Origin: Planctomycetota bacterium
GTDB lineage: Bacteria > Planctomycetota > Planctomycetia > Pirellulales > Lacipirellulaceae
NCBI GenBank assembly: GCA_029259915.1
Contig: JAJDED010000004.1
Location: 62,001 to 126,000, forward strand
Length of the DNA: 64,000 nt
Direction: 5' to 3'
In this document: positions 45,701 to 63,599 of the stretch, piece after piece
Layout of the letters: the number at the start of each line of letters is the position of its first letter
How positions within the stretch are numbered: position 1 is the first letter of the stretch
Notes under the pieces: generated by a model
Told to the model about the DNA's origin: nothing
What the model saw: only the letters and a program-made list of their open reading frames with translations
The model's database searches: none
Made by a program: the position numbers and the translations under genes

Positions 45701-46204
45701 GACGGTCACCGCAATCACGGTCACCAGTTCCAAGACGCCGTTGGCCGAGGAAATTTTTCGCTCGTCGAGCATCTCGGGGATGCTGCCCAGTTTCGACGGG
45801 CCGAACAAGGCACTTTGTGCCCCCATGGCTGTCACCACGAAAAACATCAGCGTCACGCTGCCAAGCATGATCGACGCCACTGCCAGCAGCATGATGACGA
45901 TTTCCGCGGCCTTGCAGGTGACAATCACTTTTTGTTTGCTGAAACGATCGGCAAGATAGCCAGCCGGGGCAGCAAGCAGGACGTAAGGCAGCACAAAGGC
46001 AGCACTGCCGCCAGCGAGAATCCAGCTGACTTGCTCCGGCGCAACAAACTGTTTGCCAATGCCGATGACCAACCAGCGAAGAATGTTGTCGTTTGCCGCT
46101 CCCAAGAATTGGGTCACCAACAACCCGACAAAACTTGCCGAGAGTAGGCTGCGTGCACCGCCGCTGGCAAGCTCAATATCGCTGGACGAAGTATTGCTTG
46201 CCAT
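42713..46204 (-). CDS. LplT-PlsC-acyl-ACP synthetase fusion (Aas-like)
   Basis: 1163 residues in three modules. About 1-425 is an MFS transporter of the lysophospholipid flippase type (LplT), with [13 protein letters not shown] and [12 protein letters not shown]. About 440-640 is a PlsC acyltransferase with HxxxxD as HISWLD and the [12 protein letters not shown] motif. About 670-1163 is an AMP-forming acyl ligase ([39 protein letters not shown]). E. coli encodes LplT and Aas separately; the fusion would flip lysophospholipid inward and re-acylate it. Confidence 0.85.
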
Positions 46205-48040: not shown

Positions 48041-49069
<1,029 letters not shown>

Positions 49070-49775: not shown

Positions 49776-50375
49776 CTAATCGGCAAGTGAATCGATGTCC
49801 TGAATTACGCGATGATCGTCGAGGGGCAGACGAACGCAACACTGTGGATGATCCTCCCAGTATTGCCGCAAACCCTGCGGGCAGTCGGTCTCCAGCAGAT
49901 GTTGGCCAATCTTTGCTGGAATCAACACCGGATGCCCCCCCTGCCCTTGATACTCCGGAAGAATAGCGCGCTCGGCGTCATCGTCTGCAGCGGCTAAAAT
50001 CTTCTCAAGCGTTTCCAGTAAGATCTCAGGATGATCGCCAGGGTGCAACAGCAGCGGTGCATCCTGATACAAACTAAGTGCCGCAGAAATTCCCGCTCGC
50101 ACCGATTCGAACATTGGTGCGTCGGGATCGCTTTGCACTTGCAGAAACCGACGTGGACGCAACACATCAGCAACTTCCTCGGCACGATGCCCCAGCACGA
50201 CAATCATCGCATCGCACACGGGCGAAATCGCATCATACGCGGCTGCCACCAACGTTTTTTCACCCTCTGCCGTGGGCCATGGATAAAACTGCTTGGCACC
50301 GTTCATCCGGTGGCCACGCCCTGCGGCTAAAAGAACGCCTATGGGCCGGCATTGAACAGGTTTCTCAATAGGCAT
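49776..50375 (-). CDS. MocA-like molybdopterin nucleotidyltransferase
   Basis: 199 residues. The NTP loop GVLLAAGRGHRMNGAKQFYP and the HPGDHPEIL segment (metal-binding aspartate) place it among MobA/MocA-like enzymes; the latter make molybdopterin cytosine dinucleotide for xanthine-dehydrogenase-type enzymes. Its ATG lies 10 bases after the stop of the Mo hydroxylase gene, so the two form an operon. In related gene sets the corresponding protein is YgfJ/MocA, giving a clear functional link. Confidence 0.8.
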   Translation of the reverse strand: MPIEKPVQCRPIGVLLAAGRGHRMNGAKQFYPWPTAEGEKTLVAAAYDAISPVCDAMIVVLGHRAEEVADVLRPRRFLQVQSDPDAPMFESVRAGISAALSLYQDAPLLLHPGDHPEILLETLEKILAAADDDAERAILPEYQGQGGHPVLIPAKIGQHLLETDCPQGLRQYWEDHPQCCVRLPLDDHRVIQDIDSLAD

Positions 50376-50385
50376 GGAGATTTTT

Positions 50386-53055
50386 CTACTTCCCGTTCCT
50401 GCTGACCTGCGGTTTGGTAATCGCTAGCGCCGCGGGTGAATCGCTCATTGGCAAGCGACGGCGTACAACTCCGTCGTAGCGGTATAGTGCGCCAGCGATA
50501 GCCGGGGCGGTCGGCACCAGGCCAATCTCGCCGACGCCTCGCGCTCCAAACGGACATTCGGGATCTTCCTCTTCGACGAAAATCAATTCCATTTCAGGCA
50601 TCTGATGCGCACGCAGCACGCCGCAATCGTTCATTTTTTTGGCCTGCACAACACCTTCCTCAACAGGAAAGTCTTCGGTCAACGCGTATCCGATGCCCAT
50701 GTGCAACGAACCGTACATTTGCCCCTGGAGATGGATTGGATTGATCACCCGGCCTACGTCGTGCGCGGCGATCATTTTTACGAGTTTCCCCTGGTCATCG
50801 AGAATGGCCACTTGGGTTGCGAAGCCGTAAGTAAGATGCGTCTTTGGCCCGCCCGGCTTGTCGACATCTTTACCAAGCTTGCTGGTGTAATTGCAAATCC
50901 ACTCGCCATGGAAAACGTGTCCGACTAAATCGGCCAAGGTCTGTCCGTTGTCCAGCGCGGCTTTGAGCGATTTGCCCGCCTCGGCGATCGCGTTGCCGGC
51001 CAACACTGTTCCGCGACTTGCGGTGGTTTGCCCACAGTCGAGCATCAGGCTCGTGTCGGTCGAAACCGTAAACTGATCGGGACTCAAGCCCGTTGCTTCC
51101 ACCGCAAATTGGATGCAGATGGTAAACAGTCCCTGTCCCATTTCGGTAAAGCCGGTGCGGATGTGTATGGTTTGGTCGTCCTCGACCGTAAAAGCCGCTC
51201 GGCCGATGTCGGGCATGCCATTGCCGATGCCGACATTTTTGATCCCGCACGCAATCCCCGCAAATTCGGCCCCTTTGAACTGCTCGCGAACCGCTTCAAG
51301 AGTTTTTCTCAGCCCGAACGGCTTGTCGAGAATCTGGCCCGTGGCGAACGCCTCGTTCGGTTCGAGGATATTGCGATCGCGTATGTCGTAGGCATCAATG
51401 CCCACTTTTTCCGCCAGCCGATCAAGCAATCCTTCGATGGCAAACGCGGCCTGGTTGGCACCAAATCCGCGCATCGCGCCGCAAGGCGGGTTGTTCGTGT
51501 AAACCGCGAGCGACTCCATGTCGATCGCCGGCACTCGGTACGGTCCCGTGCAGTGTCCGCCCGCACGTTCCAATACCTTGGCACCGACCGAGGCATAGGC
51601 TCCTTTGTCGCCGATGATGCGCGCCTTGACGGCCAAGATGTGGCCCTCGGCATCGCAGCCAATTTTGTACTCAAGTTCAATCGGATGACGCTTGGGATGA
51701 ATCCGAAAACTTTCGGGCCGGGTGAGCGTCATCTTCACCGGCTTGCCAAGGACCCAAGCCATCAGGGAAGTCTGGGCTTGGATCGACATATCTTCCTTGC
51801 CACCGAAGGCGCCGCCATTGCTCACCAACTCGACTTGGACGTCTAGCTTATTCACGCCCAGAACAGAAGAAATCTGACGCTGATCATCAAAAACGCCCTG
51901 CCCTTGGCTATAAACGTGCAGCGTCTGCTGTCCTTCACTTATCCGGGGCACTGCAAGGCAGGACTCCGGCTCCAGGAACAAATGCTCGATATGCTGGGTG
52001 CGGTAGGTGTCTTCGATCACATGCGCAGATTGCCGGAAACCCTCTTCGACATCCCCCCGCTTGAGTGCCGACTTGCTGAGCAAGTTGGATTCCCGCTGAG
52101 GGTGGACCAACGGGGCATCGGGCAACAACGCTTGACGGGGATCGGTCACCGGTTCGTGTACCTGGTACTCGACTTTGACGAGTGCCGCGGCACGGCGGGC
52201 CAAATGCTTGTCGTCCGCCACCACAGTGGCGATGATGTCGCCCGTACAACGAGTCTGCTCCCCAATCGCGACGAACACTGGCCAATCTTTTTCGATCAAA
52301 CCGACATAACGATCGCCCGGTACGTCGGCGGCAGTCACCACGCGATGCACTCCAGGCAGCGCTAACGCCTCGCCTGGATCGATACTCACGACGGTCGCAC
52401 GGGGATGGTCGGCCAAACGGGGCGCACCGTACAACATGCCGGGGACCGTCATGTCGTCGATAAATTTCCGATCGCCCAACACGGCATCGTGGCCCGTGTA
52501 TCGCGGCAGGCTGGTTCCCACTTTGCCGCTGAGCGATTCTGGCGACGCATCGGCGGGCGCTTCTCCCTGTCGCACGCGGCTGTATTGCTCAACACTGTCG
52601 ACAATTTGGGCGTAGCCCGTACAGCGACAAAGGTGCGGCTTGAGGCTTTTGGTAATCTCATCCCGCGAAGGTTCAGTGTTGTTCTGGCACAAGCCGACAG
52701 CCCGCATCGCCATTCCTGGAATGCAGAATCCACACTGCACGCCACCGCATTGGACGAACGATTCCGAAATTTGTTTGCGGTGTTCGTCGTCCAAACCTTC
52801 GAGCGTGGTGATCGTTTTGCCCTGGACTTTGGACGGCTTCAGGGCACACGCCAACACAGGTTTGCCGTCCAAGAGCACGGTGCAACAACCGCATTGTGCT
52901 TGTGGTTGGCAACCGTTTTTGGGCGAAGTGATGCCCAGCCGGTCGCGCAAAACGTCGAGCAAAGTGAGTTGATCGTCTTCGGATATCCGCAATTCAACGT
53001 CGGACCCATTGACGCAACACGACAATAAATGAGAAGACTCAGTAGGTGCTGACAC
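50386..53055 (-). CDS. xdhD: Xanthine-dehydrogenase-like molybdenum hydroxylase (XdhD/YgfN-type fusion)
   Basis: 889 residues from GTG 53055. The 2Fe-2S N-terminal domain has C49, C55, C58 and C70 for the first cluster, and C108, C111, C143 and C145 for the second. The Mo-cofactor domains follow directly: GGAFGGKEDMS, MRGFGANQAAFAIE and the catalytic glutamate in RGVGEIGLVPTAP. The FAD subunit of ordinary XDH is absent, as in the selenium-linked XdhD group. The likely substrate is a purine. It diverges from ygeY. Confidence 0.85.
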   Translation of the reverse strand: MSAPTESSHLLSCCVNGSDVELRISEDDQLTLLDVLRDRLGITSPKNGCQPQAQCGCCTVLLDGKPVLACALKPSKVQGKTITTLEGLDDEHRKQISESFVQCGGVQCGFCIPGMAMRAVGLCQNNTEPSRDEITKSLKPHLCRCTGYAQIVDSVEQYSRVRQGEAPADASPESLSGKVGTSLPRYTGHDAVLGDRKFIDDMTVPGMLYGAPRLADHPRATVVSIDPGEALALPGVHRVVTAADVPGDRYVGLIEKDWPVFVAIGEQTRCTGDIIATVVADDKHLARRAAALVKVEYQVHEPVTDPRQALLPDAPLVHPQRESNLLSKSALKRGDVEEGFRQSAHVIEDTYRTQHIEHLFLEPESCLAVPRISEGQQTLHVYSQGQGVFDDQRQISSVLGVNKLDVQVELVSNGGAFGGKEDMSIQAQTSLMAWVLGKPVKMTLTRPESFRIHPKRHPIELEYKIGCDAEGHILAVKARIIGDKGAYASVGAKVLERAGGHCTGPYRVPAIDMESLAVYTNNPPCGAMRGFGANQAAFAIEGLLDRLAEKVGIDAYDIRDRNILEPNEAFATGQILDKPFGLRKTLEAVREQFKGAEFAGIACGIKNVGIGNGMPDIGRAAFTVEDDQTIHIRTGFTEMGQGLFTICIQFAVEATGLSPDQFTVSTDTSLMLDCGQTTASRGTVLAGNAIAEAGKSLKAALDNGQTLADLVGHVFHGEWICNYTSKLGKDVDKPGGPKTHLTYGFATQVAILDDQGKLVKMIAAHDVGRVINPIHLQGQMYGSLHMGIGYALTEDFPVEEGVVQAKKMNDCGVLRAHQMPEMELIFVEEEDPECPFGARGVGEIGLVPTAPAIAGALYRYDGVVRRRLPMSDSPAALAITKPQVSRNGK

Positions 53056-53325
53056 GCAAGTTGGCCTCCAAAGGAAAACATTCTGGAGAATTCAGCAACG
53101 CCAAAGAGAAGCTCTCCCCAGGCAAAGCTGATTGGTAAGGTGGCCAACTTATGCCCGGCGTCGTCGCCGGACTCTCCTTCCACCGAGTACGATTTTCTCA
53201 CACACACGGAGACTATGCAAGCTCTGCTCGAAAATTCTGGTGTTCGAGTTCGGTTTGCACGGCTCCTACAAACAACAGAATCCACCATTTCGACCATTGT
53301 CCCGCTCTGCTAGATTAGGCCCACC

Positions 53326-54594
53326 ATGAAAGAAAAAACCAGCTTCCACGCTGCCGCAAAAAAATACGAAAAGAAAATGGTTCGCTTCCTCCGCGACCTG
53401 ATCGCGATCCCCTCGGAATCTGCCGAGGAAGGAAAAGTGATCAAACGCATCCAGCAAGAGATGAAGTCGACCGGTGCGTTTGACCGCATTTGGACCGACA
53501 AAATGGGCAATCTGTTTGGTCAAGTGGGTAAGCCGGGGCGCGGTAAGAAACTGATCGCCATCGACGCCCATGTCGACACGGTGGGTGTCGGCGATCTCTC
53601 GGAATGGAAACACGATCCCTACAAAGGAAAAGTAGCCGACGGCAAAGTTTGGGGACGCGGTGCTGGCGACCAAGAAGGGGCGGTGCCGGCAATGGTTTAC
53701 GCGGCCAAAATTATGCGCGATCTCAATGTCGACCTTACCGAATACTCTCTGCTGTTGACCTTTACGACGATGGAAGAAGATTGCGATGGGCTTTGCTGGC
53801 AATATATTGTCAACGAGGGAAAGATTCGCCCCGACGCCGTTGTGGTGACCGATTCGACCAACTGCTGGATTCTCCGCGGACACCGCGGGCGGATGGAAAT
53901 CGGCGTCACCTGCAAAGGCAAATCATGCCACGGCTCCATGCCCCACAAAGGGGACAACGCCGTTTACAAAATCGCTAAAGTCGCGCAGCAAATCGAGAAA
54001 CTCAATGGCCGACTCAAAAAGGATCCTTTTCTTGGTGCGGGGACAATCACCGTCAGCTACGTCGATTGCAAAACTCCCAGCCTCTGCGCCGTGCCGGGGC
54101 AGGCTTACATCCATCTCGATCGTCGGCTGACAGTGGGAGACAGCAAATCCTCTGCCGTGGCGGAAGTAAAAGATGCCGTAAAACGGGCCGGTGTGAAGGC
54201 CAAAGTCGAAGTCCTGCGGTACGACCGCCCGAGCTATACCGGCCTGACTTACGAAACAGAAAAATACTTCCCCACCTGGTGTGAGCCAGAAGATGCCCTG
54301 CAGGTGGAGGCGGCAATCAAAACGCATCGCGAAGTGCTCGGCAAGGCCCCGCTGGTGCATCGCTGGACCTTTAGCACCAACGCGGTATCGATTGCCGGGA
54401 TGTTCGGCATCCCCTGCGTCGGTTTTGGCCCTGCCCCTGAAAATGTGGCCCATACGGTCAACGACTCCGTGCCAATCAAACATCTGATCGACTGCGCAGC
54501 GTTCTACGCCGGCTACGGCCAAGCATATTGCGATTTAGCGGCAGGTCGTCCCCATAAAACTCCCATGAATTTCAAGCGCAAGAAAACAAACTGA
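53326..54594 (+). CDS. ygeY: YgeY-type M20 peptidase/deacylase
   Basis: 422 residues of the M20 metallohydrolase family. Metal motifs are DAHVDTVG, GRGAGDQEGAV and EEDCDGLCWQYI. The C-terminal RWTFSTNAVSIAGMFGIPCVGFGP with ENVAHTVNDSVPI is characteristic of the YgeY group. In the purine cluster YgeY is thought to act on a late intermediate. Divergent from the Mo hydroxylase gene across 270 bases that must contain two promoters. A large palindrome follows before ygeW. Confidence 0.86.
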   Translation: MKEKTSFHAAAKKYEKKMVRFLRDLIAIPSESAEEGKVIKRIQQEMKSTGAFDRIWTDKMGNLFGQVGKPGRGKKLIAIDAHVDTVGVGDLSEWKHDPYKGKVADGKVWGRGAGDQEGAVPAMVYAAKIMRDLNVDLTEYSLLLTFTTMEEDCDGLCWQYIVNEGKIRPDAVVVTDSTNCWILRGHRGRMEIGVTCKGKSCHGSMPHKGDNAVYKIAKVAQQIEKLNGRLKKDPFLGAGTITVSYVDCKTPSLCAVPGQAYIHLDRRLTVGDSKSSAVAEVKDAVKRAGVKAKVEVLRYDRPSYTGLTYETEKYFPTWCEPEDALQVEAAIKTHREVLGKAPLVHRWTFSTNAVSIAGMFGIPCVGFGPAPENVAHTVNDSVPIKHLIDCAAFYAGYGQAYCDLAAGRPHKTPMNFKRKKTN

Positions 54595-54601
54595 AAAAAT
54601 G

Positions 54602-54750
54602 AACCGCTAAGATCGCCAAGGACGCCAAGAAATGGTTGAAGAGGTCTGGAATCAGAGGTGGGAGGTCAGAAAACTGGCTCACAAGTCCCTTCCGACCCCT
54701 GACCTCCGACCTCTGTCCTCTAAGACGCTTTTGGCGTCCTTGGCGGTTTT
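54602..54750. repeat. Large palindrome, GCCAAGGACGCC family (element F)
   Basis: Left AACCGCTAAGATCGCCAAGG and GACGCCAAG from 54602; right TTGGCGTCCTTGGCGGTT ending 54750. Inner GAGGTCAGA/TCTGACCTC-type blocks also pair (GGAGGTCAG against CTGACCTCC). It lies between ygeY and ygeW. Confidence 0.78.
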
Positions 54751-54778
54751 CACTCTTAAAGATAAGAAAGGCTAATCG

Positions 54779-55810
54779 ATGCCATCACTCAAGGGCCGCG
54801 ACTATATCGAAACACAAGATCTGAGCCGTGAGGAGCTCGATCTACTGCTGGACACGACGACCGAACTGAAGGAAAAATTCCACCGCGGCGAACCCACTCT
54901 CCTATTGCCAAACCAAACGGGGTTTTTGCTGTTCTTCGACAAGTCGACGCGTACGCGAAACGCCTTCGAAGCAGGCATGACCCAATTGGGTGGGCACGCG
55001 CATTTTTTGGATGCCGACGTCACACAAATCAGCCACGGTGAAACCCCCGCCGACACGGGACGCATCCTGGCGTCGATGGGCCATGGCATTTGTATTCGGC
55101 ACGATCTGGTACTCGGCGAGGGGAACCGCTACATGCGAGAGATGTCCGAAGCAACCGACGTGCCGATTATCAACATGCAATGCGACGTCGATCACCCGAC
55201 ACAAACGCTGGCCGACCTGCAAACGATTCGCGAAAAGTTTGGCAACAATTTATCAGGGCTCAAAATTGCCGTCAGCTGGGCTTACGCCCCCTCCTACGCC
55301 AAACCGCTGAGCGTACCGCAAGGGTTGATCACCCTGATGACCCGATTCGGCATGCAAGTGTCGCTCGCGCATCCGCCGGGGTACAACCTGATCGAACGCA
55401 CCGTCGAAGATGCCCGCGCGAACGCTGCCACATCGGGCGGCTCGTTTGAAATTGTCGACGACATGGATACCGCTTTCCAGGACGCGGACATCGTCTATCC
55501 GAAAAGCTGGGGCGTGTACGACTTGATGGTTGCCCGACAAGCCGCCACAACACGTGAAGAAATCGATGAAAACCAGCGTGCCTGCCTGGCGATGAACGAC
55601 AAATACAAAGACTGGATTTGCGACGAACGACGGATGGGACTCGCCAAGGATTCGGCCGTGTACATGCACTGTTTACCAGCAGATCGCGGTGCGGAAGTAA
55701 CCGACGCGGTGATCGATGGGCCGCAATCGATCGTATTCCCAGAAGCAGAAAACCGCCTGCACACCGCCAAAGCGATCATGTCCTGCACGATGCGCGAGCG
55801 ACCCTTCTGA
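54779..55810 (+). CDS. ygeW: YgeW-type carbamoyltransferase
   Basis: 343 residues of the aspartate/ornithine carbamoyltransferase fold. Carbamoyl-phosphate binding is shown by DKSTRTRNAFE and the HPTQTLADL segment (QCDVDHPTQTLADL). The amino-acid side contains the HCLPADRGAEV motif. The N-terminal and loop patterns match YgeW rather than ArgF or PyrB. In the purine cluster it would release carbamoyl phosphate from an open-ring intermediate. Ribosome site AGAAAGG lies seven bases before the ATG. Confidence 0.87.
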   Translation: MPSLKGRDYIETQDLSREELDLLLDTTTELKEKFHRGEPTLLLPNQTGFLLFFDKSTRTRNAFEAGMTQLGGHAHFLDADVTQISHGETPADTGRILASMGHGICIRHDLVLGEGNRYMREMSEATDVPIINMQCDVDHPTQTLADLQTIREKFGNNLSGLKIAVSWAYAPSYAKPLSVPQGLITLMTRFGMQVSLAHPPGYNLIERTVEDARANAATSGGSFEIVDDMDTAFQDADIVYPKSWGVYDLMVARQAATTREEIDENQRACLAMNDKYKDWICDERRMGLAKDSAVYMHCLPADRGAEVTDAVIDGPQSIVFPEAENRLHTAKAIMSCTMRERPF

Positions 55811-55821
55811 TCCAGATTTTT

Positions 55822-55963
55822 CACCACAAAGGCACGAAGACACAAAGTTTTTAGATTGATGATTGCTGATTGATGAGTAATGTTGGGCGGGATTCCCTAA
55901 TTCATCACTCATCAATCAGCAATCATATATTTCTTTTCTTTGTGTCTTCGTGCCTTAGTGGTT
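55822..55963. repeat. Large palindrome, CACAAAG family (element D)
   Basis: Left CACCACAAAGGCACGAAGA from 55822; right CTTTGTGTCTTCGTGCCT ending GTGGTT at 55963. The inner GATTGCTGATTGATGAGT pairs with ACTCATCAATCAGCAATC, so almost the whole element is base-paired. It lies between ygeW and the carbamate kinase gene. Confidence 0.85.
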
Positions 55964-56009
55964 CAATCTGAAATATAAAATCTCCCCGATGTCTGGAGCC
56001 TGAAACGCC

Positions 56010-56972
56010 ATGTCCACCGTGTCGAAGAGATTGGTGGTCGCCCTGGGTGGCAACGCGATTAGTACTCCCAACAAGCAAGGGACTGTCGACGAACAGTTTG
56101 CACAAACTCGCCAATCTGCTCGCCTCTTATGCGACGCGATAGTCGAAGGCCACCAACTTGTAATCACACATGGCAACGGCCCCCAGGTGGGCAATGTGCT
56201 GCGCCGCGTGGAACTCGCCCGCACGGAACTTTACCCTATCCCGCTAGAAATCTGCGTTGCCGATACCCAAGCCGGCATGGGCTACATGATCGCCCAATGC
56301 GTGATGAACGAACTCGCCGAACGGGGCCAACCGCAAATCGTCTCCACGTTGGTTAGCACTGTGCTGGTTGATCGGAACGATCCAGCTTTTGTCTCGCCAA
56401 CCAAACCGATTGGTCCCCGCTTGGACCGCGCCATCGCAGAAGCCCACCAGCTGGAAGACGGTTGGGAAATACAGCAAGTGGATGATAAAATCTTTCGACG
56501 CATTGTGCCGTCGCCTCGGCCACTGGAAATCCTGGAAATTGAAACCATCCGGCGAATCGTCGAAGCGAATGAATTAGTCGTTTGTTGCGGCGGGGGCGGC
56601 ATACCGGTCTGCCGAGATGCCCAGGGGCAAACTAGTGGTGCGGCCGCGGTAATCGACAAAGATCTTACTACGGTCTTGCTCGCCCAAGAATTAGGAATCG
56701 ATACCGTAGTGATTCTCACTTCCGTAGAACATGTCTGCCTCAATTTTGGGAAGCCGAATCAACGTGAACTGAAGCAGATCACTCTGTTCGAAGCCAAAAG
56801 ACACTTGGAAACGGGGCAATTTCCCGAGGGATCGATGCGTCCCAAGATCGAAGCGGCCATCGAGTTTCTCGAACGTTCGCCCTCAGCCCAACCGCTCATA
56901 ATTATCGCAAGCTTGGAAAAGTTTCCCGAAGCACTGGCCGGCAATAGCGGGACGCGTGTTGTGCGGGAGTAA
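56010..56972 (+). CDS. arcC: Carbamate kinase
   Basis: 320 residues of the amino-acid-kinase fold. N-terminal ALGGNAISTP and HGNGPQVGNVLRR are the phosphate and substrate motifs; CCGGGGIPV and KIEAAIEF follow. It converts carbamoyl phosphate and ADP to ATP, carbon dioxide and ammonia. With YgeW next to it, it gives an energy-yielding end step for a ureido compound. In E. coli the equivalent in this gene set is YqeA. Confidence 0.9.
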   Translation: MSTVSKRLVVALGGNAISTPNKQGTVDEQFAQTRQSARLLCDAIVEGHQLVITHGNGPQVGNVLRRVELARTELYPIPLEICVADTQAGMGYMIAQCVMNELAERGQPQIVSTLVSTVLVDRNDPAFVSPTKPIGPRLDRAIAEAHQLEDGWEIQQVDDKIFRRIVPSPRPLEILEIETIRRIVEANELVVCCGGGGIPVCRDAQGQTSGAAAVIDKDLTTVLLAQELGIDTVVILTSVEHVCLNFGKPNQRELKQITLFEAKRHLETGQFPEGSMRPKIEAAIEFLERSPSAQPLIIIASLEKFPEALAGNSGTRVVRE

Positions 56973-56978
56973 ACCGGA

Positions 56979-57109
56979 ATATTTACCACAGAGGCACGGA
57001 GGACACAGAGAACAGAACACTTATCTGCGCTGATCTGAAAATATTAGCGAAGATAAGTGCAGATAAGCGTTCTAAAAATTTCTTCTCTGTGCCCTCTGTG
57101 GTAAATATT
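56979..57109. terminator. Large palindrome, CACAGAG family (element E), between convergent genes
   Basis: AATATTTACCACAGAGG at 56979 onward pairs with CCTCTGTGGTAAATATT to 57109; the inner GATAAGTG/CACTTATC blocks also pair. It lies between arcC (plus) and ssnA (minus), so it could terminate both, and it shares ends with element A. Confidence 0.6.
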
Positions 57110-57127
57110 CTCAGACGGTGCGCGGAA

Positions 57128-58444
57128 TTACAAATTTACCATCCGCTGGTGCAGTTCTCTGGCGACTTCTACCGAATTGGCGCGTAGCGCAGTTTCGTCG
57201 CAACCGACGACTTGCGAATCCTTCAACCGCCAATGCCCGTCGATCATCACATGGCGAACAAACTCTGGCCCCATTGCAAAGAGAAGATGCCCGGCAAGGT
57301 TTTCAGCGGTCAACGGTGTCGCTGGGCGATAATCGGTCAGTACCAAATCGGCCGCGGCCTGCAGTTCGAGCAGGCCCAATTTTGCATTCAGGCAACGCGA
57401 AGCAAATCGCGCAGACTGACCTAGCATCTCCAAAGGCTTGCCGAACGATAGCGGCAACCCCGCGTCGTTGCTCTTGAACTGGGCGGTGCGCGCTTCGCGC
57501 CACATATCGGCGCCGATTCCGTCGGTTCCTAAGAGGGGTGGTTTCTCCAACCGCACCACTGGCGTGTAGCCGACGCCGTTGTTCATGTTCGAATTGGGAT
57601 TATGGGCCAATGTGAGTTTGTCACTGCGCTCGTTCAATAGGGCATAATCCTTCTCGGAAAGATGCGTACCGTGCGCTAGGATTGAGCCGGCCACGTCCAA
57701 AAGCCCATGTTGCTGAAATCGGTCCATAAGTCCACAGCCGAATTCTTGACGGGTGATTTGCTCGTCGACCGGATCTTCCGCCACGTGGATATGCACGCCC
57801 ACGCCGAGTTGCTGGGCCATATCGACACAGCCCGCCAACGATTCTTCTTTCAGCGTAAAACTGGCATGGGCGCCCACCATCGGGGCAAACTTGCCGTCGT
57901 TTTTCGCCTGGCATTCGTAGGCAAAACGCTCGTTTTCCGACAAGCCCTGGCGGCTTTCATCGTCGGTGTTGCGGTTGGTCGTTTCGTAACACAACACGGC
58001 CCGACATCCAACGTCGGCAATGCCATCGGCCAACACCGTGAGACTTCCCTCGATCGCGGTAGGCGAGGCATGGTGGTCGACAAGCGTAGTCGTTCCGCAC
58101 CGCAAAGCAGCGAGCGCGCCAATTTGGCCGCTTACCCGCACACTTTCCAACGAGTGCGCCCGATCGAGCCGCCACCAAACGAACTGCAGTATCTCGTGAA
58201 AATTCTGCGGCGTTCGCGGCGGGGCGGGCATGCCTGCCGCCAAAGCTGAATAAAGATGCGTGTGGCCATTCACCAGCCCCGGCATCAGCACGGCACCGTC
58301 GCAATCGACAATTTCGTCGCCCTCAACGGCAACAACCCGCGGCCCCAGTTCAGCAATCACACCCGCTTCTTCCCGCAAATGCCCTGTTTGCACCGTAGGC
58401 GGATCAAGTTGAACTAACAATGCGTTGCGAAAAAAAGTTCCCAT
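57128..58444 (-). CDS. ssnA: SsnA-type amidohydrolase
   Basis: 438 residues from ATG 58444; the longer in-frame start at 58531 lies inside the preceding gene. Metal-binding motifs are NGHTHLYSAL, HVAEDPVDEQ and GTDGIGADMW, the order seen in aminohydrolases. The SsnA family is tied to selenium-dependent Mo hydroxylase loci. Its ATG overlaps the preceding stop by one base (TAATG), so the two genes are co-translated. Confidence 0.83.
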   Translation of the reverse strand: MGTFFRNALLVQLDPPTVQTGHLREEAGVIAELGPRVVAVEGDEIVDCDGAVLMPGLVNGHTHLYSALAAGMPAPPRTPQNFHEILQFVWWRLDRAHSLESVRVSGQIGALAALRCGTTTLVDHHASPTAIEGSLTVLADGIADVGCRAVLCYETTNRNTDDESRQGLSENERFAYECQAKNDGKFAPMVGAHASFTLKEESLAGCVDMAQQLGVGVHIHVAEDPVDEQITRQEFGCGLMDRFQQHGLLDVAGSILAHGTHLSEKDYALLNERSDKLTLAHNPNSNMNNGVGYTPVVRLEKPPLLGTDGIGADMWREARTAQFKSNDAGLPLSFGKPLEMLGQSARFASRCLNAKLGLLELQAAADLVLTDYRPATPLTAENLAGHLLFAMGPEFVRHVMIDGHWRLKDSQVVGCDETALRANSVEVARELHQRMVNL

Positions 58445-59895
58445 TACAGCAAGTCCATCACTCCCGTGCGCTCGTTGAATGCTTCGATTTGGCGATCCCA
58501 CTCCGGCGCCTGCGCAAAAGTGCGTTCCCAAAATTCAGGCTGCCACAGCTCTCGTAATTCCTCCACATCGCGGCCTTGTTGCTCGACCCACGTAAAGTAT
58601 TTGAAATTGTGCAGCATTTTGCGATCGTGATACGTGAGTTCACGGAAATAGTCTGTCGAAATCCCGTCAAGATACCGGGCCCTGGCGACTAGTGCGTCGT
58701 CGCGAGCAAAGGCCCCGTTCTCGGCGGCAAGTTCCTCCAGGCGGCTGGCGTACAAGTCAGCAGAGTCGGTGAGGCATGTGAAAATGACGTCTTGGCCAGT
58801 CATGTCGAAATGCTTTGCCGTTTTCACGGCAGCCACCAGGTTGCAAATGCCGGAGACACCCAGAAGTGGTAATTTGTCGACAAAATCTTTGGAAAGCGAA
58901 CGGCTTAGGGTTTCTTGTCCTACCGGGTCGTTGAACAATCGCAGCAAGGCCATGCATTGCTCGTCGTCGATTGCCGCGACGACATCGGTATTACGCACAT
59001 TGTGGATCCAGGGAACATGCTTGTCGCCGATGCCTTCGATCCGATGCCCTCCAAAGCCGAGTTGGTAGAGCGTCGGGCATTGGAGCGCTTCGGTCGCGAC
59101 GATACGCACTTGTGGATGCGCCACGCGCAGTCGGTCGCCCGCGGCAATCGTGCCGGCGCTGCCGGTGGCCGATACGTAACCCGCCAACCGATGCCCGTCA
59201 GGCAAACTGGCAAAGATCTCTTCGATAATCGAGCCGGTTACGTGATAATGCCAAACCGAATTGCCGAATTCCTCAAACTGATTGAAAATGATGCACTCGG
59301 GCCGGGTGCGGCGAATTTCCCAACATTTGTCGTAGATTTCTTTCACATTCGATTCGCACCCGGGAGTGGCGATCACTTCTGCGCCGATCTCTTCCAGCCA
59401 TTGAAACCGTTCGCGGCTCATTTCTTCCGGCAAGATTGCCACGGCTGTACAGCCGACCAATGCGGAGTCGAATGCACCGCCACGGCAGAAGTTTCCCGTG
59501 CTAGGCCACACGGCTTTGTGCGTAGTGGGATCAAATTGCCCGCTGACCAATTTTGGAACCAAGCAACCGAACGCGGCACCTACTTTGTGTGCTCCGGTAG
59601 GAAAATACTTGCCGACCAAGCCGATAATTCGCGCATCGACGCCGGTAAGCTCCGAGGGGAACTCGATCCAATTGCCGTCGCCAAACAGGCCGCCTTGTTC
59701 CACCGGTTCGTTCTTCCAGGAGATTCGGAACAGGTTCGCCGGATCGACGTCCCACAGGCCGATGGTTTTCAATCGATCTTTGATCTTCTGCGGGATGGCG
59801 TCCGGATTCTGCATCTGGGCGAAGGTTGGCAGTAGGATTTTCCGTTCACGGAATCGGGCTGCGGTTCGCTCCAATACACTTTCGTCGACTTGCAT
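58444..59895 (-). CDS. PLP-dependent fold-type II enzyme in the purine-type cluster
   Basis: 483 residues. The likely PLP lysine is in FPTGAHKVGAAFG, and the cofactor phosphate loop is near VSATGSAGTIAAG. The N-terminal region differs from classic cysteine synthase. The enzyme probably performs beta-elimination or replacement on an amino acid. In many related gene sets YgeX (diaminopropionate ammonia-lyase) takes this role; the sequence here is longer and does not carry the YgeX N-terminal motif, so it may be a functional stand-in. It is co-translated with ssnA. Confidence 0.75.
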   Translation of the reverse strand: MQVDESVLERTAARFRERKILLPTFAQMQNPDAIPQKIKDRLKTIGLWDVDPANLFRISWKNEPVEQGGLFGDGNWIEFPSELTGVDARIIGLVGKYFPTGAHKVGAAFGCLVPKLVSGQFDPTTHKAVWPSTGNFCRGGAFDSALVGCTAVAILPEEMSRERFQWLEEIGAEVIATPGCESNVKEIYDKCWEIRRTRPECIIFNQFEEFGNSVWHYHVTGSIIEEIFASLPDGHRLAGYVSATGSAGTIAAGDRLRVAHPQVRIVATEALQCPTLYQLGFGGHRIEGIGDKHVPWIHNVRNTDVVAAIDDEQCMALLRLFNDPVGQETLSRSLSKDFVDKLPLLGVSGICNLVAAVKTAKHFDMTGQDVIFTCLTDSADLYASRLEELAAENGAFARDDALVARARYLDGISTDYFRELTYHDRKMLHNFKYFTWVEQQGRDVEELRELWQPEFWERTFAQAPEWDRQIEAFNERTGVMDLL

Positions 59896-59927
59896 GTTAC
59901 TGGTCTCTTGGTTGATTGACTCGAAAC

Positions 59928-60066
59928 AAAAACCGCCAAGGACGCCAAGAGCGCCAAGGGAATTTTTTCATCCAACAAAACAGGGCAATGTCAGGTGCCG
60001 CACCTGACCTACAATTTCTTAGTCTTTCTTAGTCTTTCTTGGCGTCCTTGGCGATCTTGGCGGTTT
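59928..60066. repeat. Large palindrome, GCCAAGGACGCC family (element G)
   Basis: Left AAACCGCCAAGGACGCCAAG from 59928; right TTGGCGTCCTTGGCGATC and TTGGCGGTTT ending 60066. Inner TCAGGTG/CACCTGA is a small perfect stem, and TCTTAGTCTT repeats occur near the right arm. It lies between the two PLP enzyme genes. Confidence 0.8.
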
Positions 60067-60090
60067 AATTCTTTTACCTATAAGGGTTGG

Positions 60091-61350
60091 TTACGTTTCC
60101 AAAGCCGCTGCTACAGCATCCACTGTCGGTGGGATGCGAATTGGTTGGCCCGCTGCACGCATGGCGCTGCGTGTATCTTTTAATCCGCTGCCAGTGATCA
60201 TCGCCAAGACGCGGTCCTGGGTACCGACAATGTTCGCTTCCTTCGCCGCGACGACTCCCGCGAGCGCCGCCGCCGCTGCCGGTTCGGCAAACACACCGTG
60301 GCCTCCTGCCAATCGCATCGCGGCTTCTATCTGTTCGTCAGAAACACAAACCAGTTCGCCCTCGGCAGCGCGCAAAGCTTGAACCGCCTTTCGCCAATTG
60401 CGAGGAACTGCCACGTCGATACTGTCGGCCATGGTTGTGCCATCGCCCGGTTTTGGTAATTGATCATGTTCCAAAGCGTATTTGATCGGCGCCACTTCCG
60501 CCGCTTGTACTCCCAACAGCCTGGGAAGACGATCGATGACGCCCAGCGCGTGCATTTCGACCAAACCTTTCCACACCCCGGCAATAGTGCAACCATCGCC
60601 CACGCTCACTGCCACCCAATCGGGGACTCCGCCGAAATCCGAAGACCGTTCGGCAATTTCCAGCCCACCCGTTTTCTTTCCTTCGACCAAAACTGGATTG
60701 ATCGCACAGTTGCGATTATACCAACCGAACTGATCGCAAGCGGTGCTGCACAACTGGTAGGCTTCGTCGTAGGTTCCTTCGACAACAAACACGGTCGCAC
60801 CATAAACGAGCAATTGGGCAAGCTTCGGCTCGGGAGCCGTTTGCGGCACAAATATCTTGGCTGGGATTCCCGCCAGCGCTGCATGGCAAGCAAGGCTCGT
60901 GGCGGCATTGCCTGTCGAGGCGCAAGCAATCGTTTTTGCGCCACACTGCATGGCGTGGACCACTCCCACCGAACTGGCGCGATCTTTGAAAGAAGCGGAA
61001 GGGTTTCGGCCTTCGTCTTTTAGCAACAATTGTTTTAGTCCAAGTTGGGCGGCTAATCGATCGACATTGACCACTGGGGTCCAACCCACCTGCCATTGCC
61101 AAGGTAGCCCTGAAGAAGCCAGCGGCAACAACTCCGCATAACGCCAATGATTGTGTGGCCGCTCGACAAGCGGACGGTCCGCCCAGGCGGCTCGCACCGC
61201 TTCAAAATCGTAATGAATGTCGAGAATCCCATCCTCGTTGCCGCAGACCTCGCAGGTCATCCAGTTTTGTGCGGGCGCACCGTCGCTGCGTACTTTCCGC
61301 AAAGCATTGCACGTAACACATTTCAGCTCGGTAACCAAAGACGTAATCAC
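60091..61350 (-). CDS. Threonine-synthase-like PLP enzyme
   Basis: 419 residues from GTG 61350. An N-terminal zinc-ribbon-type region (CVTCNALRK, CEVCGNEDG) precedes the fold-type II core: PLP lysine in NPSASFKDRASSVG, phosphate loop near SVGDGCTIAG, and GGHGVFAEPAAAAAL. It may be a threonine synthase (ThrC) or a relative acting on 2,3-diaminopropionate or another substrate in the cluster. It is divergent from the ygfK-like gene. Substrate is not decided. Confidence 0.75.
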   Translation of the reverse strand: MITSLVTELKCVTCNALRKVRSDGAPAQNWMTCEVCGNEDGILDIHYDFEAVRAAWADRPLVERPHNHWRYAELLPLASSGLPWQWQVGWTPVVNVDRLAAQLGLKQLLLKDEGRNPSASFKDRASSVGVVHAMQCGAKTIACASTGNAATSLACHAALAGIPAKIFVPQTAPEPKLAQLLVYGATVFVVEGTYDEAYQLCSTACDQFGWYNRNCAINPVLVEGKKTGGLEIAERSSDFGGVPDWVAVSVGDGCTIAGVWKGLVEMHALGVIDRLPRLLGVQAAEVAPIKYALEHDQLPKPGDGTTMADSIDVAVPRNWRKAVQALRAAEGELVCVSDEQIEAAMRLAGGHGVFAEPAAAAALAGVVAAKEANIVGTQDRVLAMITGSGLKDTRSAMRAAGQPIRIPPTVDAVAAALET

Positions 61351-61568
61351 AGTAAAAAGTTCTCCCTGAACTTTGAATCTAGCCCAAGCAACATAGCCAA
61401 GCTAGAGCCAAGGGGCATGTGGTGTTAGAATTGCGGAGAGTCCTTATAACGTACGAACAAAACCAAAGGGATCGTTCCAATTCATCCGTGAATGCTGTGA
61501 TTTCCTAATATTGCTTAGACGACATAAAAATTCGCTTTTCCGCTTACGCCCTTTTCAAAGCATTTAGC

Positions 61569-63599
61569 ATGGTCGATCTCTTCTGCACTCCCTTTGTCGA
61601 GTTAATCGACCGCATGCGGTTGGAAAACCGACAACAGCAAAGCATTTTCGATCTGCCGGAGCGCAAGTGGTTCAAGCCTGGAGCCGCCGGCAACGCGCCG
61701 GACCTCACGGTCAAGTTTCATGATCAGGTTGCCGGCTCTCCGGTCGGCCCCGCCTCAGGACCGCAAACACAGATGGCCCAGAATCTGGTGCTGTCGTGGC
61801 TGGCCGGGGCGCGGATTCTGGAACTGAAAACTGTGCAAATCAACGACCAACTAGAAATTGGACGCCCCTGCATCGACGCCACCAACGTCGGTTACAACAT
61901 CGAATGGTCTCAAGAACTGCGCGTCGAACAATCGCTCGACCAATACGTGCAAGGGGCGATGCTGATCCACATGCTTCGGCACGCACCCGAAGAGTTTGGC
62001 ATTGCTCCTTCTGAAGTCGAACCACACGGCACCTGGGACGAAACGATTTACGACATGTCGATTGGTTACGACCTGACTGGAATCCAATCGGAAAAAGTTT
62101 GCGGCTTTATTCGTGGAATGATCGATGCCACGGCGAGTGTCGAACGTCTGCGCGATCAGATCCCGCAACGACTCAAACGGCTCCGCGAGTTGGAGTATCC
62201 CACCGCTCTGAGTCGCGGAATTACGCTTTCCACTTTTCATGGATGTCCGGCTGACGAGATCGAGCGCATTTGTGAATTCTTGCTCACGGAAATTGGCGTC
62301 CATGTCATTGTGAAAATGAATCCGCCTATGCTTGGCAAAGATCGCCTCGAGCACCTGCTGCACGAGGTGATGGGCTATACGGAAATCACGGTCAACCCCG
62401 CCGCTTACACGAGCGGCTTGTTGTTCGACGAATCGATTGCCATGTGCCGTCGTCTCTCGGAGCTTGCAAATTCGCACAAATTAGGATTCGGTGCCAAATT
62501 TTCCAACACTCTAGAAGTGACCAATCATCGCGATTTCTTCTCCAAAGAAGAAAAGGTGATGTACCTCTCGGGACTTCCGCTGCATGTAATTACGCTGACC
62601 CTGGCCAACGAGTTTCGCCAGCAGATGGGCGCCGAGATGCCGATCACGTTTTCTGCGGGGGTCGACCGTAAAAACTTCGTCAACATGGTCGCCTGCGGAT
62701 TTACGCCCATCACCACCTGTACTGACCTACTGAAAGTGGGCGGATACGGTCGTTTGCCGCCGTATCTCAAAGAATTGAATACCGCGATGGAAATAGTCGG
62801 GGCGAAGACGATCGACGACTTCATCCTCGATTGTCACGGCCACCGAGAACAAGCGGGCGACGACGCCGTCGCGGCGGGACTGCTCAACACCCCTTTGGTG
62901 GTCCACCAAACGCAAGCCGATTCTCGCTACTACGCCCCGCAGAATCGAGGCGTGCCGAAGAAGATTGGTTCGCATCTGGTTACCTTCGACTGCATTACTT
63001 GCGACAAGTGCATTCCTGTTTGTCCAAACGACGCCAACTTTGCGTATCATACGGGCGAAATTCAATTGGGTTACCAAGATCTGGAAATCCAGCCGGATGG
63101 TTCGCTACTCCCGGTGGGGAACGAGCAAGTTTTCAAGCTGGAGCATCGCGAGCAAATCGCCAACTTTGCCGATTACTGCAACCACTGCGGCAACTGCGAT
63201 ACTTTTTGTCCCGAGTACGATGGCCCCTATTTGATGAAACCAAGCTTCTTTGGCAGCCGGCAGGCGTTTGATGACGGGGCACCCCACGATGGCTTCCTCG
63301 TGGAGGGGCAACTCGGGAATTTAACGCTTACAGCCCGCATCGATGGTCAACTTTACCGATTGGAGCAACTCCCAGGCGGAGATTCGCGTTACGACGACGG
63401 CACGGTCGTCCTACGTGGCAACGGCTCGGGGCAGTTTGCGCTCGATGATGCCGCACCTCGTCCAAAAGCACCCCATCGGATGGATATGGGCCGTTTCTAT
63501 GCGTTGGCAACCTTGTTACGAGGTATTGCCGACCCGGAGCGTATCCACTCCGTAAACGCCCGGCTGTTGGCCCAGGGCGAGTCGGGGCAGACCGGCTAA
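61569..63599 (+). CDS. ygfK: YgfK-like Fe-S oxidoreductase, short form
   Basis: 676 residues. An N-terminal dihydroorotate-dehydrogenase-like barrel (GSPVGPASGPQTQMAQN, TLSTFHGCPADEIERI, ITTCTDLLKVGGYGR) is typical of YgfK. It is followed directly by 4Fe-4S motifs CITCDKCIPVCPNDAN and CNHCGNCDTFCPEY. E. coli YgfK has about 1030 residues and carries a GltD-like FAD/NADPH domain between the two parts; that domain is missing here. It may take electrons from another donor. The family was once called a selenate reductase subunit, but the link to purine breakdown is more likely. Confidence 0.82.
   Translation: MVDLFCTPFVELIDRMRLENRQQQSIFDLPERKWFKPGAAGNAPDLTVKFHDQVAGSPVGPASGPQTQMAQNLVLSWLAGARILELKTVQINDQLEIGRPCIDATNVGYNIEWSQELRVEQSLDQYVQGAMLIHMLRHAPEEFGIAPSEVEPHGTWDETIYDMSIGYDLTGIQSEKVCGFIRGMIDATASVERLRDQIPQRLKRLRELEYPTALSRGITLSTFHGCPADEIERICEFLLTEIGVHVIVKMNPPMLGKDRLEHLLHEVMGYTEITVNPAAYTSGLLFDESIAMCRRLSELANSHKLGFGAKFSNTLEVTNHRDFFSKEEKVMYLSGLPLHVITLTLANEFRQQMGAEMPITFSAGVDRKNFVNMVACGFTPITTCTDLLKVGGYGRLPPYLKELNTAMEIVGAKTIDDFILDCHGHREQAGDDAVAAGLLNTPLVVHQTQADSRYYAPQNRGVPKKIGSHLVTFDCITCDKCIPVCPNDANFAYHTGEIQLGYQDLEIQPDGSLLPVGNEQVFKLEHREQIANFADYCNHCGNCDTFCPEYDGPYLMKPSFFGSRQAFDDGAPHDGFLVEGQLGNLTLTARIDGQLYRLEQLPGGDSRYDDGTVVLRGNGSGQFALDDAAPRPKAPHRMDMGRFYALATLLRGIADPERIHSVNARLLAQGESGQTG

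Follow-up and report, generated by a model that had tools for sequence, protein, structure and literature searches.

How might a bacterium complete the reductive breakdown of uric acid when YgeX, the last enzyme of the known pathway, is apparently missing? This question is raised by a gene cluster at positions 49776–63599 of the window, i.e., the whole stretch of 64,000 nucleotides analysed here (positions 62,001–126,000 of contig JAJDED010000004.1, assembly GCA_029259915.1, from a Planctomycetota bacterium). The pathway has been described from enzymes of E. coli and C. difficile: XdhD-YgfM converts urate to yanthine, which YgfK and SsnA turn into ureidomethylhydantoin (PMC12507026). HyuA then forms 2,3-diureidopropionate, YgeW/YqeA and YgeY yield diaminopropionate, and YgeX releases pyruvate and ammonia, according to the same description (Li et al., 2025; PMC12507026). 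Judging from sequence, we consider it probable (about 0.62) that the planctomycete cluster encodes a variant of this pathway in which a threonine-synthase-like enzyme takes the place of YgeX. We refer to this enzyme as thrC* and to a further enzyme of the pyridoxal phosphate (PLP) type as plpA, both names being coined in the present analysis. The reductive uric acid pathway is known; what appears to be new, within the literature searched, is that YgeX seems to be displaced and that a plpA family extends over several phyla. No paper there combined uric acid with threonine synthase and ygeW, none of those listed combined ssnA with Planctomycetota, and the one listed for diaminopropionate and threonine synthase deals with a siderophore.

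Gene content and proposed pathway

Family searches and translations of the window identify nine genes in the cluster (Table 1). A preliminary description of the locus had listed seven, all of which lie where it placed them; plpA and thrC*, situated inside the same stretch, were not on its list, and the notable part of the cluster, the apparent YgeX displacement and the extra PLP enzymes, was overlooked. In map order the genes are mocA-like, Mo (molybdenum) hydroxylase, ygeY, ygeW, carbamate kinase (yqeA), ssnA, plpA, thrC* and ygfK. By direction of transcription they form four units, xdhD-mocA (minus strand), ygeY-ygeW-yqeA (plus), thrC*-plpA-ssnA (minus) and ygfK (plus), which bears out the earlier statement that the set is split into several divergent and convergent units. 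The gene-order comparison proposed there revealed all nine genes in identical order and orientation in three relatives (G024, G006, and G004), although in G006 additional genes separate ygeY from ygeW and yqeA from ssnA; the cluster is therefore not a chance assembly. In a fourth relative (G052), plpA, thrC*, and ssnA share one contig. A good SsnA orthologue is present in 5 of the 59 genomes searched, comprising the organism's own and its relatives (at least 498 bits; the next match scores 76). Among named genomes, the closest plpA relatives come from metagenome-assembled Planctomycetota, in agreement with the earlier placement of the locus in a planctomycete.

The cluster of E. coli K-12 has the order ygeW-ygeX-ygeY-hyuA-yqeA ... 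mocA-ygfK-ssnA-ygfM-xdhD. Like it, the window combines homologs of the Mo hydroxylase, MocA, YgfK, SsnA, YgeW, YqeA, and YgeY in one region. Unlike it, the window cluster lacks YgeX, YgfM, YqeB, YqeC, and HyuA, contains plpA and thrC* in addition, has a YgfK without a counterpart of E. coli residues 406–903, and employs a Mo hydroxylase of another family. YgeY, YgeW, YqeA, and SsnA share 49, 43, 41, and 39% identity, respectively, with their E. coli K-12 homologs (BLASTP), including aligned STRTR, HPTQ, and HCLPAD stretches in YgeW and HxH, HIH, H, and TDG stretches in SsnA. The possibility that YgeY, YgeW, and SsnA belong to unrelated families, which the preliminary description had named as a ground for abandoning its reading, thus did not materialize. 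YgeY and YqeA each exceed a curated cut-off, YgeW remains below its own, and the best NCBIfam match of SsnA is NF005540, below that family's cut-off. HyuA was rejected as a member of the cluster: a dihydropyrimidinase gene is encoded only outside it (contig C58), and such genes are also found in genomes without the cluster.

The following reaction sequence is predicted from gene content, synteny, patterns of co-occurrence and exclusion, domain losses and a residue signature. The XdhD-type Mo hydroxylase, with a cofactor made by MocA, would reduce urate to 2,8-dioxopurine (yanthine). The short YgfK, with flavin mononucleotide (FMN) and two 4Fe-4S clusters, would reduce the aromatic ring with ferredoxin-like electrons, and SsnA would open it. 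The dihydropyrimidinase encoded on contig C58 could perform the HyuA step to 2,3-diureidopropionate. YgeW may then transfer one carbamoyl group to phosphate, a phosphorolysis to carbamoyl phosphate from which YqeA could derive adenosine triphosphate (ATP), while YgeY would remove the other ureido group to leave 2,3-diaminopropionate. Finally, thrC* would cleave the latter to pyruvate and ammonia, and plpA is envisaged as an extra conserved PLP enzyme that probably acts on this three-carbon (C3) amino acid or on the ureido compound preceding it. In line with the earlier proposal that nitrogen or ATP is drawn from purines via carbamoyl phosphate, purine or urate breakdown supplying carbamoyl phosphate and ATP remains the best reading, the gene set matching the reductive uric acid pathway, with each step predicted from homology.

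YgeX, thrC* and plpA

No protein over the cut-off of the YgeX family (NF006058) was detected in any of the 15 genomes searched, among them the organism's own, which is 93% complete; two of 14 control genomes exceeded it. With this family thrC* scores 50.6 bits (cut-off 276), and BLAST aligns it to E. coli YgeX at 24% identity (2e-10). It has the same fold family as solved threonine synthases (PDB 2zsj, 2d1f, 6cgq, and 1uim) and lies above the TIGR00260 cut-off. It differs from them, however, in its signature residues, and a canonical threonine synthase is encoded elsewhere in all 15 genomes, whereas thrC* is confined to the five that have the cluster. All 56 aligned thrC* sequences have GDG for GN, EGKK for EGQK, and Leu or Thr for the Arg of NPxR. 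The GNxGN, EGQK, and Arg positions are kept in the four solved enzymes (there as GNAGN) and in four canonical planctomycete copies. Among 12 other planctomycete ThrC-like sequences, 11 have GNL(GN) and EGQK and all 12 the Arg; one ThrC-like sequence outside the clusters (L262) likewise carries EGKK. The altered sites correspond to Arg160, Ser155, and Asn188 of the Thermus threonine synthase, which we take to be contacts to the phosphate of the substrate. Loss of phosphate binding would fit a phosphate-free substrate such as diaminopropionate. The N-terminal segment of thrC* contains four conserved Cys. In a phylogenetic tree, a branch supported at 100/99 separates the 56 thrC* sequences, with E. 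coli YgeX on their side, from the rest; the positions of E. coli YgeX and ThrC were discarded because of branch lengths of 10.

The distribution of thrC* and YgeX was followed in the surroundings of plpA. A scan of named genomes yielded 543 confirmed relatives of plpA, of which the best 80 were analyzed, so that all counts of loci describe the closest ones. Since calling of open reading frames (ORFs) recovered plpA in only 71 of the 80 loci and missed some plpA and thrC genes, linkage was counted by tblastn; thrC* was defined by its GDG and EGKK letters, and two partial thrC-like pieces without these (L121 and L142) were left uncounted. Within the flanks covered, at least one core pathway gene accompanies plpA in 53 of the 80 loci and at least two in 45, thrC* is found in 41 (in 38 of these beside a core gene), and HyuA in 12. 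By ORF clustering, the recurrent neighbour families are thrC-like proteins (36 loci), the Mo hydroxylase (31), SsnA (25), long YgfK (23), YgeW (18), YgeY (17), HyuA (10), YqeA (8), and short YgfK and MocA (6 each). Further neighbours, named by reading, are an ABC-transporter ATPase type (8 loci) and, in 6 loci of Bacteroidota, a regulator resembling AsnC; XdhC/CoxI-like proteins with approximately 30% identity to E. coli YqeB occur in 5 loci, antisense ORFs of pathway genes in 6 and 5, and all remaining families in at most 5. Recurring gene orders include ygfK-plpA-thrC*-xdhD-ssnA-hyuA in Bacteroidota and ygfK-ssnA-xdhB-xdhD-plpA-ygeY-ygeW-yqeA-thrC* in Gammaproteobacteria.

From these 80, 50 genomes with pathway genes or a thrC-like gene beside plpA were selected. 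YgeX exceeds its cut-off in six of them (three Aminicenantes, two Acidobacteria, and one SAR324), none of which has thrC* beside plpA, as opposed to 38 of the 44 others (Fisher p 5.8e-5, kinship ignored). Of the remaining 30, in which plpA is unlinked, 29 were searched for SsnA, and 23 contain it at 311 bits or more. Within the Planctomycetota, SsnA was detected at E 1e-70 in 31 of 392 genomes, 8 of these matches being less certain at 237–269 bits. Together with four relatives these make up 35 SsnA-positive planctomycetes, which were compared with 25 SsnA-negative ones: plpA is present in 27 of the 35 and in none of the 25 (Fisher 4.5e-10, kinship ignored), thrC* in 22 and none, and YgeX in 3 and none. 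The three planctomycetes with YgeX (G429, G365, and G332; loci L177–L179 and L234–L236) belong to one genus and contain neither plpA nor thrC*; their YgeX is 51–55% identical to that of E. coli, and in two of the three YgeY shares 70–71% and, likewise in two, YqeA 66% identity with the E. coli proteins. Thus, thrC* seems to stand in for YgeX and vice versa, while plpA accompanies thrC* in most such cases and YgeX in some. Because of this mutual exclusion we infer that thrC* works like YgeX, as a putative 2,3-diaminopropionate lyase.

The second PLP enzyme, plpA, is more difficult to place. It scores 95 and 92 bits with the cysK and cysKM families (cut-offs 351 and 344). Its structure model is of high quality (predicted local distance difference test, pLDDT, 91.7; predicted template modelling score, pTM, 0.93), and the best Foldseek match is CysK (E 6e-15, 313 aligned columns). 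The core of about 310 of the 483 residues resembles cysteine synthase and cystathionine beta-synthase (PDB 8sru and 6c2h; template modelling (TM) score 0.83 on 8sru); unlike in these enzymes, extra N- and C-terminal parts of about 170 residues surround it. Motifs such as WPSTGNxCRGG and GIGDKH are invariant in the 42 sequences compared. In our view plpA is likewise a conserved pathway enzyme; it is probably translated together with SsnA, and its substrate is most likely the same C3 amino acid or the ureido compound preceding it. Candidate reactions are those of a ureido-amino-acid lyase, of a partner of thrC* or racemase, and of a beta-replacement enzyme.

Could plpA rather than thrC* catalyze the last lyase step, with thrC* making another product or serving amino acid synthesis? 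Such an assignment would agree with plpA being the most conserved (61–78% identity to the window copy across 41 other sequences), with the overlap of its stop codon with the ssnA start, with its presence in more of the SsnA-positive planctomycetes (27 of 35, against 22 for thrC*), and with a fold typical of beta-elimination and beta-replacement enzymes. We nevertheless regard it as unlikely, as true YgeX coexists with plpA in 6 of the 50 genomes, where thrC* is never found beside plpA, and as it is thrC*, not plpA, that BLAST aligns to E. coli YgeX. For the former reason plpA was also rejected as a simple YgeX replacement. Less probable still is a lower module that does not end in pyruvate and in which plpA, thrC*, or both couple a nucleophile to the C3 unit or act on the latter as racemases; the pathway would then feed amino acid synthesis, e.g., of a beta-substituted alanine. 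The Foldseek neighbours of plpA are indeed beta-replacement enzymes (cysteine synthase, beta-cyanoalanine synthase, and O-ureidoserine synthase), two PLP enzymes occupy the position of a single one in E. coli, and the intermediates have been proposed to be R-configured (PMC12990295). However, beta-elimination enzymes share this fold, so that the fold class does not fix the reaction, and no recurrent neighbour family points to a co-substrate. We retain thrC* as the probable lyase and plpA as an additional enzyme of the pathway.

Upper pathway, electron supply and selenium

The Mo hydroxylase comprises the Pfam domains Fer2_2, Ald_Xan_dh_C, MoCoBD_1, and MoCoBD_2, with the 2Fe-2S part fused to the Mo-binding domains. 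It lacks FAD_binding_5, and no flavin adenine dinucleotide (FAD) domain was matched in the remaining proteins of the cluster. Likewise, no YgfM was identified in a search covering the cluster region. In C. difficile and C. sporogenes, too, XdhD/XdhAC is described without YgfM, and UacX without an FAD domain (PMC12507026; PMC12990295). Only residues 9–405 and 904–999 of E. coli YgfK align with the short YgfK of the window (BLASTP; 36% identity over the N-terminal 415 columns and 31% over 123). The missing part includes E. coli residues 457–847, which match gltA-type NADPH enzymes. The short YgfK thus consists of a flavin (FMN) domain similar to dihydropyrimidine and dihydroorotate dehydrogenases and two 4Fe-4S motifs, without the GltD-like module for FAD and nicotinamide adenine dinucleotide (phosphate), NAD(P)H. 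It scores 393.5 bits with its family (cut-off 835), with the N- and C-terminal domains retained and the middle module absent, and eight invariant Cys form two CxxCxxCxxxC motifs in 10 short YgfK sequences. The structure model is of modest quality (pLDDT 74.8); dihydropyrimidine dehydrogenase is the best Foldseek match (E 6e-7, TM 0.30), with dihydroorotate dehydrogenase also among the first and TM scores low at about 0.3, in keeping with a predicted ring-reducing flavin enzyme. With no NAD(P)H/FAD module in the short YgfK and no YgfM encoded nearby, the electron donor is probably a ferredoxin or a similar protein. This resembles the clostridia, where both reductases lack such a module and ferredoxin has been proposed according to published descriptions; in contrast to them, the window retains a shortened YgfK and YgeW/YqeA instead of UacX and UacY, and lacks YgeX.

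The ssnA frame as listed opens at a TTG inside plpA, but a start at the ATG at 58444 is most likely, giving a protein encoded at 57128–58444. This ATG and the plpA stop codon share one base (TAATG, 58446–58442), an overlap that suggests translational coupling of the two genes.

The preliminary description also linked the cluster to selenium-dependent Mo hydroxylases, and one could go further and regard it as a selenium-dependent xanthine dehydrogenase cluster whose purpose is the oxidation of purines to urate. In favour of this, the Mo hydroxylase scores high enough for membership of TIGR03311, named "selenium-dependent xanthine dehydrogenase", and selD is present in the genome. However, selD, fused to an oxidoreductase domain, stands beside selA and selB (contig C63, L055 3232–8977), and its use as an orphan marker of a selenium hydroxylase was rejected for this reason. 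The gene yqeB is described as a marker of the selenium hydroxylase trait (PMC2276186) and as required for growth of C. difficile on urate (PMC11448449). Its family (TIGR03309) had no match in the 15 genomes searched, while 3 of 14 control genomes had matches, one of them over the cut-off. With yqeB absent and selD accompanied by selA and selB, the selenium label is unsupported for this Mo hydroxylase, and the link is weak despite the TIGR03311 membership. A purpose in xanthine oxidation appears highly improbable to us, because no role in it is known for YgeW, YgeY, SsnA, or YgfK and because G004 and G006 have a separate xanthine-dehydrogenase-type operon beside the cluster, which would be redundant. 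This operon, read from translations, encodes a 2Fe-2S/FAD subunit, XdhB, and an XdhC-type factor, and adjoins ygfK (G004, L039 110–4818; G006, L036 16857–19999 and L037 262–1767); in G004, XdhB scores 921 bits (cut-off 849.5) and XdhC 167 bits (cut-off 161.6). No such operon was seen at the corresponding place in the window.

Another substrate, such as a different N-heterocycle or a hydantoin or ureido compound, would require that homologous enzymes were repurposed. YgeW, SsnA, and YgfK do fall below their family cut-offs, HyuA is encoded outside the cluster, and several related loci are environmental. Yet XdhD, YgfK, SsnA, YgeW, YqeA, and YgeY are kept together, HyuA does occur near plpA in some loci, and the xanthine dehydrogenase operon adjoins the cluster in two relatives, so that we judge repurposing quite improbable and maintain uric acid as the predicted substrate.

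Several observations nevertheless weigh against a uric acid pathway ending with thrC* and including plpA. Nothing in the E. coli cluster corresponds to plpA, and the pathway is described as rebuilt in vitro without a plpA-like enzyme (PMC12507026). The Mo hydroxylase belongs to TIGR03311 and E. coli XdhD to TIGR03313, and the former lacks the insertion of the latter that bears E606, a residue thought to orient urate. The D-hydantoinase family exceeds its cut-off in all 15 genomes, including 10 without the cluster, and therefore may serve another pathway. In six of the 50 genomes both YgeX and thrC* are missing from the locus; three of these six loci span 8.5–12.3 kb, one with a truncated thrC-like piece. 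Of the 29 genomes with unlinked plpA, four (G114, G127, G128, and G132) contain no convincing SsnA and two (G124 and G118) only SsnA fragments. Moreover, thrC* at 283 bits or more is missing in 10 of the 32 SsnA-positive, YgeX-negative planctomycetes, and the 25 SsnA-negative genomes stem from the order and class of the window organism and are unmatched in kinship to the 35.

Among the best 80 of the 543 plpA relatives, linked clusters are represented in the Planctomycetota, Bacteroidota, Gammaproteobacteria, Sumerlaeota, Elusimicrobiota, Myxococcota, and other groups, and the record titles of several mention groundwater, lake, sediment, or marine samples. A published commentary leans toward a recent adaptation to the gut (PMC12990295), and the 2025 papers leave the origin of the pathway open. 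Planctomycetota are not among the phyla for which the published survey reports SsnA, and its main text does not contain the word (PMC12507026). YgeX is described as called there by Pfam PF00291 (PMC12507026); as YgeX, thrC*, and plpA all match this family, the survey could not separate them. We tentatively suggest, at less than even odds, that many bacteria outside the gut end reductive uricolysis with a PLP module of thrC*, as a new lyase family related to threonine synthase, and plpA, as a new family whose step the E. coli scheme lacks, that the pathway is ferredoxin-run in planctomycetes, and that it is not a recent gut adaptation; the latter would, if true, follow from its spread over several phyla sampled from groundwater, lakes, and the sea. 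Two uncharacterised enzyme families would thereby gain a concrete pathway assignment, of relevance to engineered urate-lowering bacteria and to environmental nitrogen turnover.

Feature coordinates, candidate leader RNA and surroundings

Table 1. Features of the cluster, with positions in the window, strand and the match or observation behind each assignment.
Feature	Position	Strand	Basis
mocA-like, Mo-cofactor nucleotidyltransferase (NTP_transf_3)	49776–50375	-	Pfam PF12804 3.5e-26; TIGR03310 88.9 bits, cut-off 186
Mo hydroxylase, XdhD/XdhAC-type; proposed urate-to-yanthine reductase	50386–53055	-	TIGR03311 949.6 bits, cut-off 830.45
Candidate cis-regulatory RNA, xdhD leader	53053–53185	-	conservation in 4 genomes
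ygeY, M20 metallohydrolase; predicted second ureido-group hydrolase	53326–54594	+	NF009555 513 bits, cut-off 321; TIGR03526 510, cut-off 321.5
ygeW-like knotted carbamoyltransferase	54779–55810	+	NF005538 303 bits, cut-off 453; TIGR03316 276, cut-off 500
yqeA-like carbamate kinase	56010–56972	+	NF009007 319 bits, cut-off 266; TIGR00746 338, cut-off 358
ssnA, amidohydrolase; predicted to open the reduced purine ring	57128–58444	-	NF005540 398.8 bits, cut-off 444
plpA, uncharacterised PLP enzyme, cysteine-synthase fold	58444–59895	-	PF00291
thrC*, threonine-synthase-like PLP enzyme; proposed YgeX replacement	60091–61350	-	TIGR00260 182 bits, cut-off 167
Short ygfK; proposed dearomatising reductase	61569–63599	+	partial alignment to E. 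coli YgfK

The leader of xdhD contains a candidate cis-regulatory RNA, known from close relatives, which may regulate the pathway. Besides the window copy, the element lies at L035 6112–6303 (minus strand), L036 3052–3197 (minus), and L039 14613–14756 (plus). In the window, its two-stem core spans 53139–53184. All 12 core pairs are kept in the four genomes, and three of them are changed on both sides, each in one sequence; 11 of 500 shuffles reached the same level. The fold of the leader is 1.6 standard deviations better than that of shuffled sequences, 10 of 200 being equally good, and a GUUGGCC segment is able to pair with GGCCAAC adjoining the Shine-Dalgarno sequence of xdhD. As the hairpin length varies out of frame, the block probably does not code for protein. 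A search of 100 sources gave no additional convincing copy, and a known riboswitch was rejected, since no Rfam family matched up to E 5. A promoter motif shared by both divergent regions was likewise discarded, the 15 top 9-mers listed all lying in the xdhD-ygeY region.

According to the translations, the cluster is flanked by hemB on one side and by rplY, pth, ssb, rplI, dnaB, and a BamA-like gene on the other; the contig ends about 8 kb past the window. A compositional island was rejected, as the guanine-cytosine content of the cluster (0.54–0.57) equals that of the preceding 6 kb. The flanking hemB (porphobilinogen synthase; 48230–49057, minus strand) has an in-frame TAG at 48232–48230 beyond which hemB-like sequence continues in frame, indicating either a broken gene or an assembly error. 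Further upstream in the window, 42713–46204 (minus strand) encodes a protein of 1163 amino acids in which a major facilitator superfamily (MFS) transporter is fused to acyltransferase and AMP-binding domains.

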